A stretch of DNA of 64,000 nt. Source: Gracilibacillus suaedae (lineage in GTDB: Bacteria; Bacillota; Bacilli; Bacillales; Amphibacillaceae). The translations under genes and the position numbers were made by a program. The stretch is taken from contig NZ_JAGFVL010000030.1 of NCBI RefSeq assembly GCF_017599345.1, positions 1 through 64,000 of the forward strand, in the 5' to 3' direction. The stretch's first letter is position 1. Each line of letters starts with the position of its first letter. The notes beneath the pieces were generated by a model that was not told where the DNA came from, made no database searches, and saw only the letters and a list, made by a program, of their open reading frames with translations. Shown piece after piece: positions 45,964-52,572 of the stretch.

Positions 45964-46947
45964 TTAAAATTCCGCTAAATCGCGAATAGCTTGTTCAATC
46001 TTTTCAGCATTTATCATAAATTCTTTTTCTAATGGTGGTGCATATGGCATTGCAGGTACTTCTGGCCCCGCTAATCTATGAATCGGCGCATCCAAATCAA
46101 ACAAGCAATGTTCACTTATGATAGCAGAAACCTCTCCTATTATACTGCCTTCTTTATTATCTTCAGTGACTAATAACACTTTACCTGTTTTAGAAGCTGC
46201 GTCAATAATCGTTTGTTGATCCAGTGGATATACCGTTCGTAAATCAAGAATCTCGGTATTAATGCCTTCTTGCTCCAGCTTTTCTGCTGCTTGTTTGGTG
46301 AAATGTACACATAACCCATACGTAATCACCGTTACATCATCACCTTCACGAACGGTGTTTGCTTTACCGATTGGCACGGTATAATCTTCTTCAGGTACCT
46401 CTTCTTTCAAAAGACGATAAGCTCTTTTATGTTCTAGGAATAACACTGGGTCATCATCTCTAATAGCAGCTTTGAGTAATCCCTTTACATCATATGGAGA
46501 GGAAGGCATTACAATTTTTAACCCTGGCTGATTTGCAAAAATAGCTTCTATTGATTGTGAGTGATAAAGTGCTCCGTGTACTCCTCCACCATAGGGTGCT
46601 CTTATTGTTATCGGACAATTCCAATCATTATTAGACCGATATCGAATACGCGCAGCTTCAGAAATAATTTGATTAACGGCAGGCATAATAAAATCAGCGA
46701 ATTGCATTTCTGCAACAGGACGCATACCATACATCGCTGCTCCAATTCCAACACCTGCTATAGCAGATTCAGCAAGAGGTGTGTCTATCACTCGTTTCTC
46801 TCCAAATTGATCATATAAACCTGATGTTGCTAGGAAAACACCACCTCTTTTCCCCACATCTTCACCAAGAACAAATACTTTCTCATTTTGTTCCATTTCT
46901 TCTTTTAATGCTTGATTAACTGCCTGGATATACGTCAAAACAGCCAT
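45964..46947 (-). CDS. bkdAB: branched-chain alpha-keto acid dehydrogenase E1 beta
   Basis: A 327-residue E1 beta subunit with the transketolase pyrimidine-binding domain (VFVLGEDVGKRGGVF, RVIDTPLAESAIAGVGIGAA, MQFADFIMPAVNQI) and C-terminal domain (VTYGL, DLRTVYPLD, VTEDNKEGSI). With E1 alpha it decarboxylates branched keto acids from Val, Leu and Ile. Its ATG overlaps the bkdAA stop (TAATG). Confidence 0.94.
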   Translation of the reverse strand: MAVLTYIQAVNQALKEEMEQNEKVFVLGEDVGKRGGVFLATSGLYDQFGEKRVIDTPLAESAIAGVGIGAAMYGMRPVAEMQFADFIMPAVNQIISEAARIRYRSNNDWNCPITIRAPYGGGVHGALYHSQSIEAIFANQPGLKIVMPSSPYDVKGLLKAAIRDDDPVLFLEHKRAYRLLKEEVPEEDYTVPIGKANTVREGDDVTVITYGLCVHFTKQAAEKLEQEGINTEILDLRTVYPLDQQTIIDAASKTGKVLLVTEDNKEGSIIGEVSAIISEHCLFDLDAPIHRLAGPEVPAMPYAPPLEKEFMINAEKIEQAIRDLAEF

Positions 46948-47948
46948 TAGTGATCCCCCTTTTCACCATAGACATAATTATTAATTGTTGAAACATCTGC
47001 ATACGGTGCGTCCTCAGCATATTCTGTCGCATCATTTATTTCTTTTTTTATTTCCGACTCTAAATCGTCATTTATCGTTTCAGTAAGATATCCCTTTTCA
47101 AACAAGAAGTTTTTGAAACGTTCTAAACCATCTTTTGATTTTTCGTTCGTTACCTCATCTTTTGTTCGATAAGTCATGTCATCATCATCACTGGAATGAG
47201 GTGTTAAACGATAGGACACGGCTTCAATCAATGTAGCCCCTTCTCCATTTAAAGCACGTTCATGTGCTTCTTTTACTGCTTCATATACTTCGATCGCTTC
47301 ATTTCCATCGACTTTAATTCCTTTTATCCCATAGCCAATAGCCCGGTCCGAAATATTTTCACATGCTACTTGTTTATTTAGAGGTACACTAATGGCATAC
47401 TTGTTATTTTCCACCATAAAAATAACAGGTAATTTGTGAACACCAGCAAAATTCAATCCTTCATGAAAGTCACCTTGATTCGAAGAGCCTTCCCCTAAAG
47501 TGACAAACGATACCGCAGGGTTATTTTCCATTTTTGCAGCTAAGGCAAAACCTGCAGCATGAGGTACTTGAGTCGTTACAGGGGAAGAGCCAGTAACAAT
47601 ACGGTTCTTTTTCTGGCTAAAGTGACTTGGCATTTGTCGACCGCCTGAGTTTGGATCTTCACCTTTGGCATACGCCTGTAAAAATATTTCTCTTGTAGTC
47701 ATACCGAAATGGATGACAACACCGAGATCACGGTAATAGGGTAATACGTAGTCCCGCTCTTTGTTCAAGGCAAATGACGCCGCAATCTGCATTACTTCTT
47801 GCCCTTGACAGGATACAACAAACGGAATACTTCCCGAACGATTTAATAACCACATTCTTTCATCAATTCTTCTTGCTAATAACATCTCACGATACATTGC
47901 CAGTAAGGTATCTTTATCGTTTTCTAATGCATAATTTTGATTAACCAT
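46947..47948 (-). CDS. bkdAA: branched-chain alpha-keto acid dehydrogenase E1 alpha
   Basis: A 333-residue TPP-dependent E1 alpha subunit. The TPP motif is GEGSSNQGDFHEGLNFAGV...VENNKYAIS, and the phosphorylation-loop-like TPHSSDDDDMTYR is present. It overlaps lpdV by eight bases and bkdAB by three. Confidence 0.94.
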   Translation of the reverse strand: MVNQNYALENDKDTLLAMYREMLLARRIDERMWLLNRSGSIPFVVSCQGQEVMQIAASFALNKERDYVLPYYRDLGVVIHFGMTTREIFLQAYAKGEDPNSGGRQMPSHFSQKKNRIVTGSSPVTTQVPHAAGFALAAKMENNPAVSFVTLGEGSSNQGDFHEGLNFAGVHKLPVIFMVENNKYAISVPLNKQVACENISDRAIGYGIKGIKVDGNEAIEVYEAVKEAHERALNGEGATLIEAVSYRLTPHSSDDDDMTYRTKDEVTNEKSKDGLERFKNFLFEKGYLTETINDDLESEIKKEINDATEYAEDAPYADVSTINNYVYGEKGDH

Positions 47949-49365
47949 GAATTTTCCTCCCCTCGACTGCTAATGCAGCCTCTCCAATAATTTCACTTAA
48001 AGATGGATGCGGATAGACGACCTCAGATAATTCTAAAGCCGAACCATCGAAATATTTGGCAGTACTTGCTTGTCCAATTAATTCTGTTACTTGCTCTCCA
48101 ATCATGTGGATACCTAAAATATCATTTGTTTGCTTATCTATAATTATTTTGGTAAAACCTTCTGTATGACCATTCACATGCGCTTTTCCAATTGCCTGAA
48201 GTGATACTTTTTCGACACGATAGTCATATCCTTTGTGTTTTACTTCGGCTTCTGTATAGCCAACCATCGCTATTTCAGGACTTCCGTAAATACATGACGG
48301 AATTTCCTGTTGACTTATGGAGCTGCTTCTAATTCCCGCAATATGTTCGACTGCTTTCTTTCCTTCATAAGTCGCAACATGTGCAAGCTGTTTACCTCCA
48401 TTTACATCACCAATTGCATAAATGTGGCTCTCTTTAGTTTGAAAATGTTCATTGACCTCAATAAACCCTTTTGGATCAAGTTGGATGTCTGTGTTTTCTA
48501 TTCCAATTTTTTTAGTATTTGCTTGTCTTCCCACTGCAATCAGTAATTTTTCGGCTGATATATTATGTATTTCATGTTTTTGTTGATATCTTACTTGTAT
48601 TTCAGGCCCTATTTCAAATGAACCAGGATCTATTTTGGCTTGTTCAAGGATAGTAATTCCTTTCTTTGTTAATATTCGTTTGAATTGTTTCACAATATCA
48701 TGATCAAAAGTCGAAAGTATCTGATCTTGTGCTTCCATTATTGTTACTTTTACACCCACATCATGTAAGAAAGAAGCCCATTCCAATCCAATAACCCCGC
48801 CACCTACAATGATGATCGATTTTGGTAATGCACTCATTTCTACTAAGTCATCTGATGTAACGATATGCCTATGATCTATTTCCATATCAGGCAGTATACT
48901 TGGTGAAGACCCCGTTGCGATAATTACGTTTTTAGATACTAATATATCATTTTCTCTTTCATCTCCATATTCTACAGAAATTGACCCAGCAATTGGCGAA
49001 AAGATAGAAGGACCTAATATACGACCAAAGCCCTCATATACATCGATTTTATTAGTGTGTACTAAATGTTCGACACCTTGATGTAAAGCGTTGATTACCT
49101 TTCCCTTCCGTTCCATTGCTTTGTCAATATTAAATGTTGGAGCTGTCGTTTCCACTCCAAAATCAGCAGCATTTATTACTTGTTGATAAACGGCAGCACT
49201 TTTCAGTAAAGCTTTCGTGGGAATACATCCTTTGTGTAAACAGGTTCCACCAAGCTTTTCCTTTTCAACAATTGCTGTTGTTAAACCTAATTGAGCAGCT
49301 CGGATTGCTGTAACATAGCCACCTGTGCCACCACCAAGAATAACAAGATCATAATTTAATGCCAT
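47941..49365 (-). CDS. lpdV: dihydrolipoyl dehydrogenase (E3) of the BKDH complex
   Basis: A 474-residue flavoprotein with FAD motif LGGGTGGYVTAIRAAQLG, redox disulfide GGTCLHKGCIPTK, NAD motif IIVGGGVIGLEWAS, second FAD site YAIGDV and the catalytic HPHPSLSE at the C-terminus. It reoxidises the E2 lipoyl group. The ATG at 49365 gives the usual N-terminus (MALNYDLVILGGG); one at 49374 is possible. Confidence 0.93.
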   Translation of the reverse strand: MALNYDLVILGGGTGGYVTAIRAAQLGLTTAIVEKEKLGGTCLHKGCIPTKALLKSAAVYQQVINAADFGVETTAPTFNIDKAMERKGKVINALHQGVEHLVHTNKIDVYEGFGRILGPSIFSPIAGSISVEYGDERENDILVSKNVIIATGSSPSILPDMEIDHRHIVTSDDLVEMSALPKSIIIVGGGVIGLEWASFLHDVGVKVTIMEAQDQILSTFDHDIVKQFKRILTKKGITILEQAKIDPGSFEIGPEIQVRYQQKHEIHNISAEKLLIAVGRQANTKKIGIENTDIQLDPKGFIEVNEHFQTKESHIYAIGDVNGGKQLAHVATYEGKKAVEHIAGIRSSSISQQEIPSCIYGSPEIAMVGYTEAEVKHKGYDYRVEKVSLQAIGKAHVNGHTEGFTKIIIDKQTNDILGIHMIGEQVTELIGQASTAKYFDGSALELSEVVYPHPSLSEIIGEAALAVEGRKIHG

Positions 49366-49382
49366 ATAAGCCATTCCTTCCT

Positions 49383-50456
49383 TTAATTGTATTGCTTTAC
49401 TCTCTCTTTTCCCTGTAAAACTCTTAACGTACCTTGCGCAAGAGCTAACATCACATTTTCACCCGGAAATACATAGGTATCAGCAATCCAGCTTACTTGT
49501 TCGATAATTTTTTGATTGAGATAATCGTATGCAGCTAGATCACCTGTTAGAGCAATTGCATTGACATTGCCAGATACAACCGTGCTCATCTTCCCTATTT
49601 CTTTTGCTACCTGGTAGGCTAAAACATTAAATACTTCCTTCACTTTCTCAGGTTGAGATCTCCATAATATTTTTAAATCAGCACTTCTTTCAATATCCAA
49701 ATATGCTTTGATTCCACTTCTGTTTATTAACTGATCTTGTAATGCTACTTTTGACATTCCTGAGTCAAAACTTAATTGTATCAGATCTTTATTAGGTATC
49801 GAACCAGCACGCTCAAATGAAAATGGACCATCTCCATCAAAACCATTATTAACATCAATTACCTGTCCGTATTGATGTACGCCAACCGTTATGCCACCAC
49901 CCATATGAGCGATCACTAAACAAAGATCTTCATATCTTGCATGAAGTTGATTAGCAAGCGATCTTCCAACAGATTTCTGGTTCAAAGCATGAAAAATGCT
50001 TTTCCGTTCAATCGAAGGTACTCCTGTTTTTTTAGCTATCTCCAACATCTCATCCACTACAACTGGATCGACAATATAAGCATTGATATTCCATTCCGTT
50101 GCTATGTCATAAGCTAATAATGCACCTAGGTTAGAGACATGGGTACCATTTATACTGTTATTTAGATCATCGACCATTTGCTCATTCACCTGATAAGTAC
50201 CACCTTCAATCGGGCGTAGTAACCCACCTCTCCCACAAACAGCATCAATTGTTGAAATATCGATACCAATAGATTGGATTCTCTCGATAATATTTTGCTT
50301 TCTTTCATTACGTTGCGCTAATATGTCTTTAGCTAAACTTACATCGGTTAAAACGACCAGCTGTTCATATAAGCACTCATCATTCTCAAATAGTGCAACT
50401 TTCGTACTTTCCACCAAAGGATTGATAACTAAAATGCGATAAATCTTTTTTGTCAT
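49383..50456 (-). CDS. buk: butyrate/branched-chain fatty acid kinase
   Basis: A 357-residue acetokinase-family enzyme (LVINPLVESTKVALFENDE, HVSNLGALLAYDIA, CLVIAHMGGGITVGVHQYG, NVNAIALTGDLA). It makes ATP from acyl phosphates, here presumably isobutyryl, isovaleryl and 2-methylbutyryl phosphate. The usual partner ptb, which forms these from acyl-CoA, is not in the operon. The start overlaps the bkdR stop by four bases. Confidence 0.92.
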   Translation of the reverse strand: MTKKIYRILVINPLVESTKVALFENDECLYEQLVVLTDVSLAKDILAQRNERKQNIIERIQSIGIDISTIDAVCGRGGLLRPIEGGTYQVNEQMVDDLNNSINGTHVSNLGALLAYDIATEWNINAYIVDPVVVDEMLEIAKKTGVPSIERKSIFHALNQKSVGRSLANQLHARYEDLCLVIAHMGGGITVGVHQYGQVIDVNNGFDGDGPFSFERAGSIPNKDLIQLSFDSGMSKVALQDQLINRSGIKAYLDIERSADLKILWRSQPEKVKEVFNVLAYQVAKEIGKMSTVVSGNVNAIALTGDLAAYDYLNQKIIEQVSWIADTYVFPGENVMLALAQGTLRVLQGKERVKQYN

Positions 50457-52054
50457 GGAGCACCTCGATCAATATTATATTTATCCATCTTATAATATAA
50501 ATTACGAACAGAAACACCTAAAGACTTTGCTGTTTTCGTTTTATTAAAATCCTGCTGTTGTAAAGCTAATAAGATATAATCTTTTTCAAACTGATCGATC
50601 GCAGTCTGTAACGGCATATTAAAGCTAGCTCTCTGTACATGATGGGGTTCTTTTAAATCATTTTTTTTCAATTGCTCTTTTGTAATAACATTTGTAAAAA
50701 CATCAGCTTCCAACACCAATTTCTCTAGTGTCCTTTCTAATTGAGCAATATTACCAGACCACTCACACTTTTTCCAATATTCAATAACTTCCTTGTCTAC
50801 TTTTGATATATTTGTATGATACTGTCTGTTAAGTTTGGCTAAAAGCATATCTACTAGCAAATAAATATCTTCCTGCCTTTCGCTTAATGCTGGCAACGTA
50901 ATTTGGTAACGTTGAATCATATCATACAAAGAATTTTTCCAATGTTCGGAAAGTAAAGCCTGTGAACTTCCAAAAATCACTCGCAATTCATCTGTATTAT
51001 TTACAAATTCAAATAATTGTTCTTGCTTTTCTTTTGTGATTATTTCATCCATATAAAAATATACTGTTCCGTTTCTTCCAGATTGCAATACACGTTCCAA
51101 CTCAGTGCTCAAATTGCTCGAACTTGCTAATGCAGAAAAGTTACATCTTATAAAAGGGTGTGAATACCTATCACTCAATGCATGGATGACTCTCGCCAGC
51201 ATATATTTCCCAGTTCCTTTTTCCCCTCTAATTAGTATAGGAGTTCTCATCTTTGCATATAGCTTGGCGTGTTCGCGTGCAATATTGATTGCTGGCGATT
51301 TTCCAATAATATCGTCTATTCGGTAGGTCTTTTCTAACTTTCTTATGATTTTTTTTGCGAATTGCAGTTCTTGTTCGCTATCCATTAACTTATCTGCATT
51401 TAAAAACTGCACACAACCGATTAACTTCCCATTTCTTTGAATTGGCTTACTAATTATCTCAATGTGATTGGACATAATCTTATTATCCTGAAATGTTTCC
51501 CTGATTTCTCGTCTAGTTTTCATCGCTATTTCAGCCAATCTATGTACCCATTTGTCAGCATGTCGACTGATTGTTCGTAATTCATTCCACCAACAATCAC
51601 TACTTAACCATTCACTATGATCTACAAGTACAACACGAAATTTTGTATAGCTATTTCGTAACTCCCGCAACACTCCTTCAACTAAATCAATATTCGTTAA
51701 TTGACTGACACGTTCATGGAATCTAGTTAAAGGTTCGACCAGAAGGATAACTCCAAGCAATTCTCCTTGCTCACTTAAATAAGGGCTATACCGCGTCACA
51801 ACTTGTTTGCCATTTTTTTTGATGACATCGCATTTTTCCAAAGGATCATGCATTTGCTTTACGTCAATTGTAGTAGCATTCTCAAGTAATTCATTAATAG
51901 AAATATTGCTTATATCCCCATTCAAATAAAGTATATCTTGAGCTGACTTGTTTAGATAACTTATGTTGTCATTTTTATCTACTAATAATAAGCCAACTGG
52001 TAAGTTATGAAATAAATGGTCATATCTATCCAACATGTTTGCAGTTATTTTCAT
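50453..52054 (-). CDS. bkdR: BkdR-like regulator lacking the sigma-54 contact motif
   Basis: A 533-residue protein with PAS domain (about 14-110), a second sensory region (to about 240), an NtrC-type AAA+ domain (about 245-455) and a Fis-type HTH (KTAKSLGVSVRNLYYKMDKY, 507-526). Position upstream of buk matches BkdR. Unusual: Walker A is GEKGTGK (277-283), but the stretch between CNFSAL and NGT (304-330) has no GAFTGA loop, Walker B reads VYFYMDE, and the PLRER motif is PALSERQED. It probably cannot activate sigma-54 polymerase and may act like TyrR. Start uncertain: ATG at 52054 with AAGG, or ATG at 52066. Confidence 0.85.
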   Translation of the reverse strand: MKITANMLDRYDHLFHNLPVGLLLVDKNDNISYLNKSAQDILYLNGDISNISINELLENATTIDVKQMHDPLEKCDVIKKNGKQVVTRYSPYLSEQGELLGVILLVEPLTRFHERVSQLTNIDLVEGVLRELRNSYTKFRVVLVDHSEWLSSDCWWNELRTISRHADKWVHRLAEIAMKTRREIRETFQDNKIMSNHIEIISKPIQRNGKLIGCVQFLNADKLMDSEQELQFAKKIIRKLEKTYRIDDIIGKSPAINIAREHAKLYAKMRTPILIRGEKGTGKYMLARVIHALSDRYSHPFIRCNFSALASSSNLSTELERVLQSGRNGTVYFYMDEIITKEKQEQLFEFVNNTDELRVIFGSSQALLSEHWKNSLYDMIQRYQITLPALSERQEDIYLLVDMLLAKLNRQYHTNISKVDKEVIEYWKKCEWSGNIAQLERTLEKLVLEADVFTNVITKEQLKKNDLKEPHHVQRASFNMPLQTAIDQFEKDYILLALQQQDFNKTKTAKSLGVSVRNLYYKMDKYNIDRGAP

Positions 52055-52082
52055 CACACCTTGCATTATTTTTCATACTCTT

Positions 52083-52112
52083 ATAATAAAACTTCTTGCA
52101 AAACTTTGCAAG
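52083..52112 (-). promoter_or_regulatory. SigA-like promoter of bkdR with overlapping palindrome
   Basis: On the minus strand TTGCAA (complement of 52106-52111), a 17-bp spacer and TATTAT (complement of 52083-52088) form a good SigA promoter about 30 bp before bkdR. CTTGCAAAACTTTGCAAG at 52095-52112 has perfect eight-base inverted arms and covers the -35 box, so it is a likely operator. No GG-N10-GC sigma-54 promoter is seen. Confidence 0.6.
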
Positions 52113-52309: not shown

Positions 52310-52552
52310 TTGAGAATTATTGCGTTATTGCTATTAGCCTTACCTGCTGTATTAGCAACTTACGGTATTAAATTAATGAGAGATGCATTTTTCGGTGAGC
52401 TAACAGATATATTTATGCACATTATTATCCAGTTTATTGTGGGACTAGGTCTTTTCGCGGGAGGATTATATTTTATCGGTGGATTTATTCTTCACAGAGA
52501 TCGTAAACGTCAATTAATAAAAGGCGGAAAAAATAACAGGTATTCCCAATGA
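52310..52552 (+). CDS. yqzF: DUF2627 membrane protein (YqzF)
   Basis: An 80-residue protein with two membrane segments (about 4-22 and 36-60) and the family motifs TYGIKLMRDAFFG and YFIGGFILHRDRKR. Function unknown. YqzF precedes bkdR in B. subtilis too. The start is a TTG with GGAGGG six bases upstream; a GTG at 52292 is in frame but overlaps that site's spacing poorly. Confidence 0.87.
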   Translation: MRIIALLLLALPAVLATYGIKLMRDAFFGELTDIFMHIIIQFIVGLGLFAGGLYFIGGFILHRDRKRQLIKGGKNNRYSQ

Positions 52553-52572
52553 GGAATACCTGTTATTATGTT
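52534..52572. terminator. bidirectional terminator between yqzF and aspartokinase
   Basis: ATAACAGGTATTCC and GGAATACCTGTTAT form a 14-bp stem with a six-base loop. On the minus strand it is followed by TTTTTTCC, so it ends the aspartokinase transcript. It overlaps the end of yqzF. Confidence 0.88.

Follow-up and report, generated by a model that had tools for sequence, protein, structure and literature searches.

A probable former sigma-54 activator in Gracilibacillus suaedae: loop-less BkdR and a candidate operator at its own promoter

The regulator gene bkdR of Gracilibacillus suaedae lies on the minus strand (50453–52054) of the 64,000-nucleotide stretch analysed here, called the window below, which comprises positions 1 to 64,000 of contig NZ_JAGFVL010000030.1 (assembly GCF_017599345.1). 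We propose that its product is a former sigma-54 activator and that the operon behind it, with genes for amino-acid breakdown, is now read mainly from bkdR's own, old SigA-type promoter, most likely under repression by BkdR itself. We consider this reading probable rather than secure as a whole; its first element, the loss of sigma-54 dependence, is well supported by sequence comparison. Here we describe the protein, its relatives across the family, and the promoter and candidate operator from which repression and SigA control would follow.

The BkdR protein and its missing activator parts

The 533-residue product is an intact BkdR orthologue of Gracilibacillus: its gene stands between lysC and the bkd genes, it is similar to BkdR over its full length and shares the same helix-turn-helix (HTH), and among named relatives the nearest is G. 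lacisalsi (83% protein identity). The open reading frame (ORF) has the limits that the first-pass annotation of the window had given it. An AAGGTG-like ribosome site precedes the ATG at 52054, and the stop lies at 50453; the ORF could also open at 52066. Pfam finds PAS, AAA_lid_14 and HTH_8 domains, and PF00158, the sigma-54 activation domain, at profile positions 1–63 of 168 only. The PAS domain (residues 10–107; 51734–52027) and the Fis-type HTH (residues 486–526; 50477–50599), mostly invariant across 24 aligned relatives, have thus been kept, as annotated earlier. Between them lie a second PAS-like region, seen only in the AlphaFold2 (AF2) model, a degenerate AAA+ domain (approximately residues 249–390; 50885–51310; located by Pfam and structure comparison) and a lid. 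The N-terminal Rossmann-like region of the canonical, ~690-residue BkdR is absent, leaving the protein short of the full canonical set (Rossmann-like, PAS, PAS, AAA+, HTH). The AAA+ part of the AF2 model has a pLDDT (predicted local distance difference test) of ~90 and, among the chains compared, best matches the AAA+ domains of the bacterial enhancer-binding proteins (bEBPs) FleQ, NtrC1, VpsR and PspF (Z 22–23; root mean square deviation ~2–3 Å over ~215–220 residues).

Among the features of a functional bEBP, Walker A is retained (GEKGTGKY, residues 277–284; 51203–51226), while the L1 loop, the Walker B acid pair and the arginine fingers are not. GAFSGA or GAFTGA occurs in 41 of 84 aligned BkdR proteins, and in all 41 the distance from Walker A to the G of Walker B is 67 residues. 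In the window protein it is 52, which places a 15-residue deficit at the site of the L1/GAF[ST]GA hairpin (51071–51130). The first-pass annotation had described a shortened AAA+ domain devoid of GAFTGA, and had named a displaced but intact loop as the result that would speak against it; the alignment contains no such loop, and nowhere in the 533 residues do more than 2 of 6 positions agree with GAFTGA or GAFSGA. Walker B, also reported there as changed, aligns as GTVYFYMD with the canonical GSIFLDEI (NGTVYFYMD against MGSIFLDEI in full; 51047–51073), so that the acid pair is gone. The canonical arginine-finger motif FREDLYYR is replaced by WKNSLYDM(I), WPGNIREL by WSGNIAQL, and the sensor II motif is altered as well.

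The locus and the genome agree with the protein. No -24/-12 element was found in the stretch that starts 40 bp ahead of the bkdR stop and ends 300 bp past it, where the best match (9/11) lies inside buk, in keeping with the earlier statement that buk has no such promoter before it; in the 500 bp upstream of bkdR the best match is 7/11. A look-up of sigL (rpoN), proposed with the annotation, yielded no RpoN in this draft genome of 64 contigs: PF04963 gave zero matches, and PF04552 only a sub-cutoff match of 39 positions overlapping a gene that reads as a LacI-type repressor, although both searches detect sigma-54 in E. coli and B. subtilis. Nor did sigma-54 pass the cut-off in any of 17 Gracilibacillus genomes (our own and 16 others, two of them less than 90% complete). 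Because the loop, Walker B and the arginine fingers are lost, no rpoN passes the cut-off, no -24/-12 element is found and buk is fused to bkdR, independence from sigma-54 is, on sequence grounds, a well-supported conclusion.

Loop, promoter and sigma factor across the family

Sigma-54 passes the cut-off in 98 of 159 genomes of the family and not in the other 61 (genomes, loci and contigs are cited by our handles G, L and C). We examined 84 BkdR loci, 51 of them in sigL-plus genomes (98 in all) and 33 in sigL-minus ones (61 in all). The sigL-plus loci comprise the best 30 from a search of 80 of the 98 genomes with the window protein, L126, and 20 picked by hand (16 of them tree tips); with a loop-less query and hand-picked loci, loop-less BkdR is over-represented. 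For the remaining 28 sigL-minus genomes the search used PF00158 alone. G158, scored as sigL-minus and part of no BkdR count, is a fragmented assembly with eight PF00158 matches above 220 bits, and its sigma factor may have been missed. G084 (loci L131, L199, L200), in which three rpoB genes occur beside SigL-A and a loop-less BkdR, looks like a mixture; we treated it as a mixed assembly and dropped it, leaving 83 loci.

The -24/-12 promoter was scored as a perfect TGGCAYN5TTGCW behind bkdR, a match inside ptb (G146) being disregarded. Loop and promoter occur together in 38 loci, the loop alone in 3, neither in 42 and the promoter alone in none (Fisher p 1.7e-20, which ignores relatedness). Loop-bearing loci come from 40 genomes with sigL and 1 without, loop-less loci from 10 with and 32 without. 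On an RpoB/RpoC tree of 56 usable tips the loop has been lost 10 times, or 9 with weak nodes collapsed, counts that presume no regain of the loop and no exchange of bkdR between species.

The mixed states suggest an order for these losses. Three loci have the loop without the promoter (G038, G161, G043), one of which (G043) already has FK instead of FR. In seven of the 42 loop-less proteins (G044, G132–G137) the Walker B acids and FR..YR at the arginine fingers are still present. Of the 84 proteins, 19 have no Walker B acid pair, and all 19 are loop-less; within Gracilibacillus the pair is missing from 14 of 17, with G008, G009 and G013 still DE. Strict Walker A (GxxGxGK) is kept in 83 of 84. 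Because of the three loop-only loci, the seven loop-less proteins with intact motifs and the confinement of acid-pair loss to loop-less proteins, it appears from present-day species that the promoter was lost before the loop and that the ATPase mostly decayed last.

A simple story in which sigL was lost and the loop therefore followed is incomplete, as ten of the 42 loop-less genomes keep a SigL of one particular type. The 38 SigL proteins recovered from 39 regions split deeply into clade A (17 proteins; support 0.996) and clade B (21 proteins; support 1.0); these paralogues are found at L196–L214 and L216–L235, five typed genomes carry both, and the SigL-B of G135 is only 326 aa. Among sigL-plus genomes with a BkdR row, SigL was typed in 32 of 51 (G084 excluded): 16 have SigL-A (5 of them also B) and 16 have B only. 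All 16 counted SigL-A genomes have both loop and promoter in BkdR, the 17th SigL-A belonging to the dropped G084, whose BkdR is loop-less. Of the SigL-B-only genomes six have the loop (four of them with the promoter) and ten are loop-less; the other 32 loop-less genomes have no sigL.

Each of the ten loop-less SigL-B genomes has exactly one other strong activator match (E up to 1e-33), which in nine lies within the same fetched region as sigL, at gaps of up to ~6 kb. This neighbourhood offers no clean contrast, because an activator also stands ~8–9 kb from SigL-B in loop-bearing G038, G056, G130 and G159, and because the fetched sigL regions differed in length. In five SigL-A genomes (G039, G054, G116, G121, G129) BkdR is the only strong activator match, and SigL-A therefore looks like a sigma factor retained largely for BkdR. 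SigL-B could in part have been re-acquired by transfer.

The bkdR promoter, its candidate operator and rival readings

Ahead of bkdR stands a SigA-type promoter, TTGCAA-17-TATTAT, with its -35 hexamer at 52106–52111, its -10 hexamer at 52083–52088 and an expected start near 52076 (minus strand, like the genes and protein motifs). Over the -35 hexamer and the spacer lies a perfect palindrome, CTTGCAAANNTTTGCAAG (52095–52112, unstranded), with the core TGC-N8-GCA, which we regard as a candidate BkdR operator (site 1). A second, decayed site (52059–52076) reads TGAAAAATAATGCA where many relatives have TGCAAAAAAATGCA.

The case for promoter and operator is comparative. Of the 64 loci with enough upstream DNA, 63 carry TGC-N8-GCA at the promoter of bkdR itself, namely 23 of 24 with the loop and all 40 without it; shuffled upstream stretches give about 2 of 64. 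Inside bkdR genes, ends excluded, the pattern is found 33 times against 17 in shuffles over 138 kb; at this rate of only ~0.1 per 450 bp, the promoter excess stands far above the gene background too. Paired sites spaced exactly 35 bp occur in 16 of 24 loop-bearing and 21 of 40 loop-less testable loci, and a site 1 beginning with TTGC is followed 17 bp on by a TA---T hexamer in 53 of 64 (19 of 24 and 34 of 40, respectively). Sites of the same kind are found in canonical Bacillus loci (B. licheniformis group), and in 29 of the 38 canonical loci the motif lies near position -58, -76 or both, counted from the -24 element, with a further 4 of 38 having it elsewhere within the 100 bp. Near the bkdR stop it is kept in 5 of 45 promoter-less loci, probably as a remnant.

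In the 4.65 Mb of the own genome the pattern CTTGCAANNNNTTGCAAG has one exact copy. With up to two mismatches it occurs in 13 places against 11 for the control, giving no sign of a wider BkdR regulon in this genome; loci were inspected for 6 of the 12 two-mismatch places, one of which, on C61, lies inside a mutS-like gene. Another, on C9 (L162:1503), is a TGC-N8-GCA that precedes methyltransferase-like and acetate-kinase-like genes, perhaps by chance.

From its coordinates, the palindrome is centred about -28 from the expected start, over the -35 and spacer, a position that suits a repressor. The first-pass annotation had called the promoter SigA-like and had proposed a switch from sigma-54 to SigA. 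Both hexamers are present (9/12) and conserved in relatives, though the promoter scan was not above chance; it is this conservation, of hexamers and of the positions of the overlying site, that argues for the promoter. As to the switch, the loss of sigma-54 dependence holds up, while SigA control would follow from the arrangement just described. We would refine that proposal in two respects. The same sites and SigA-type promoter are present at bkdR in loop-bearing loci, suggesting an old autoregulatory promoter rather than a new one, and a site lying across -35 and spacer is better suited to repression than to activation.

The gene buk, for butyrate kinase (49383–50456), overlaps bkdR by 4 bp (50453–50456), as noted earlier, and follows it directly in 17 of 17 Gracilibacillus genomes (L083–L098 and the window); the order in G017 is bkdR-ptb-bcd-buk-lpd. 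Next come what we take to be an lpdV-type dihydrolipoyl dehydrogenase (47941–49374) and bkdAA-type E1 alpha (46947–47948) and bkdAB-type E1 beta (45964–46947) genes, all on the minus strand; ptb and bcd are no longer behind bkdR in this lineage. On the other side, a terminator-like hairpin of 15 pairs lies just after lysC (52532–52567).

We suggest the following course of events. Behind bkdR, the ancestral BkdR would have occupied one or two sites ahead of a -24/-12 promoter, at which ATP hydrolysis and the GAF[ST]GA loop would have opened sigma-54 polymerase; it would also have had sites on bkdR's own SigA-type promoter. In the window lineage sigma-54, the -24/-12 promoter and the loop would then have gone, ptb and bcd ceased to stand behind bkdR and buk become fused to it; because of these losses and this fusion, buk-lpdV-bkdA is most likely transcribed mainly from the bkdR promoter. 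Having retained its HTH and Walker A, BkdR most likely occupies the palindrome as a dimer or a higher oligomer, and may bind nucleotide without hydrolysing it. It would repress its own promoter until released through the PAS sensor, the signal being perhaps a branched-chain amino or keto acid.

Several observations weigh against this proposal. The -35 hexamer matches in 4 of 6 positions, the promoter scan found 12 candidates where shuffles predict 15.1, and site 2 is half lost in the window. A promoter-like TTTATA-16-TATAAT inside the end of bkdR (50474–50501) scores better than the bkdR promoter (10/12 against 9/12) and may provide a second buk start outside BkdR control. A weak terminator-like hairpin is also called at the palindrome (52112–52095). 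Ten genomes with a loop-less BkdR still carry a type B sigma-54, and the dropped G084, which would argue against a tie between SigL-A and BkdR, combines a loop-less BkdR with SigL-A and about ten strong, intact activators. By analogy, loop-less TyrR and Caulobacter NtrC can activate as well.

In one rival reading BkdR would have become an activator that depends on SigA, comparable to what is reported for NtrC of R. capsulatus, and would touch SigA polymerase from the same site. Loop-less relatives are indeed reported at sigma-70 promoters, some of them as activators (PMC3162934; PMC10274813). A site centred near -28 falls within a promoter that has a 17 bp spacer, and loop-bearing species have the same site at bkdR's own promoter; we think this explanation unlikely. 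Activators usually sit further upstream than about -28.

We give rather little credence to a decaying relic, or a regulator of itself alone, with buk onward expressed constitutively, perhaps from the promoter-like site in the bkdR end. The progressive decay of the AAA+ motifs, the half-lost site and the presence of that promoter-like sequence could be so understood. That sequence is, however, not conserved across the genus. It is exact in G000 and G003, exact and 3 bp shifted in G010 and G015 (4 of 17 together), differs by a single base in G002, G014 and G016, and is weaker in the ten remaining genomes; it overlaps conserved HTH codons of bkdR. Moreover, all 17 Gracilibacillus genomes have an open, full-length bkdR ORF, HTH and Walker A are mostly invariant, and site 1 is retained and symmetric in the nearest relatives. 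The ratio of nonsynonymous to synonymous change (dN/dS, Nei-Gojobori) is 0.21, 0.15, 0.14 and 0.23 in four Gracilibacillus pairs; by region, in two pairs, it is 0.17–0.21 for AAA+, 0.14–0.18 for the HTH, 0.14 and 0.34 for the lid and highest, 0.32–0.37, for PAS. With ratios this low (0.14–0.23), bkdR is to judge from its codons under purifying selection and no pseudogene.

That BkdR still partners an unrecognised sigma-54 is very improbable. The SigL-B of ten loop-less genomes and the 64-contig state of our assembly leave some room for it, against which stand the two profile searches without an RpoN in the own genome, the missing -24/-12 element, the combined loss of loop, Walker B and arginine fingers, and the one other strong activator available to SigL-B in all ten such genomes (in the sigL region in nine). 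We can practically dismiss the palindrome as a terminator rather than an operator, despite the weak match mentioned above, as many relatives have TTGCTAAANNNTGCAG-like forms there that hardly pair as a hairpin and yet preserve TGC-N8-GCA and its 17 bp distance to the -10, and as the same motif precedes the sigma-54 promoter in most canonical loci.

Related regulators and a possible path out of sigma-54 control

The window BkdR resembles that of B. subtilis and B. thuringiensis in its place before the bkd genes and in its PAS, AAA+ and Fis-type HTH domains, and differs in lacking the loop, the Walker B pair, the arginine fingers and the Rossmann-like region. Those proteins activate a -24/-12 promoter with sigma-54, neither of which was found for the window; in B. 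thuringiensis, where this was tested, the sigma-54 promoter ahead of the phosphate butyryltransferase gene is reported to need BkdR (PMC4428206). Relatives of activators whose GAFTGA is missing or damaged, and for which action independent of sigma-54 has been shown or proposed, include TyrR and DhaR (E. coli), HupR (R. capsulatus), VpsR (V. cholerae) and YplP (B. subtilis), and Francke et al. mention organisms with an activator homologue and no sigma-54 (PMC3162934). The window BkdR is no TyrR, scoring 72.3 bits where the NCBIfam TyrR equivalog cut-off is 576. The sensor domains and targets of all five regulators differ from those of the window BkdR. Caulobacter NtrC, in which an L1 deletion has likewise removed GAFTGA and which appears to repress its own operon, offers a parallel for autorepression; unlike BkdR it is a two-component response regulator that also activates glnBA and has a wide regulon (PMC10274813).

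Other loop-less or loop-altered activator relatives occur in these genomes. A second activator-derived regulator without GAFTGA, of 594 aa and with a PrpR_N domain, is encoded on contig C21 of the own genome (L001:1081–2865, minus strand); regulators of the PrpR_N type without GAFTGA are also present at L099, L100, L101 and L127, and the similar protein of G017 lacks GAFTGA too, although that genome carries two sigL genes. In the sigL-less G117, G035 and G036 (L103, L104, L106), activators of ~460 aa have GSFVGA at the loop of an otherwise canonical-looking AAA+ domain.

Taking family and window together, we tentatively suggest, as a scenario about which we remain more doubtful than confident, that BkdR may have passed from activator to autorepressor some nine or ten times in one family by the same ordered path. 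The sigma-54 promoter would be lost first and the operon captured by the regulator's own autoregulated SigA-type promoter; the loop and then the ATPase motifs would follow, while an AAA+ core that binds ATP but does not hydrolyse it would go on serving in the switch. Where BkdR is the only recognisable client of SigL-A, its escape would remove the last reason to keep that sigma factor.

By titles and abstract openings, the literature matches listed include no report of such a graded BkdR series, and a survey of sigma-54 retains GAFTGA-bearing proteins only (PMC12316311). The window BkdR is a candidate pseudo-ATPase transcription factor and comes with a predicted operator. The survival of a regulator after the loss of its sigma factor has so far been known mostly from single end states such as TyrR. 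Here related species seem to preserve early, intermediate and final states of a single regulator along with its DNA sites and sigma factor, so that the sequence of changes can be read off and each change examined in laboratory strains.

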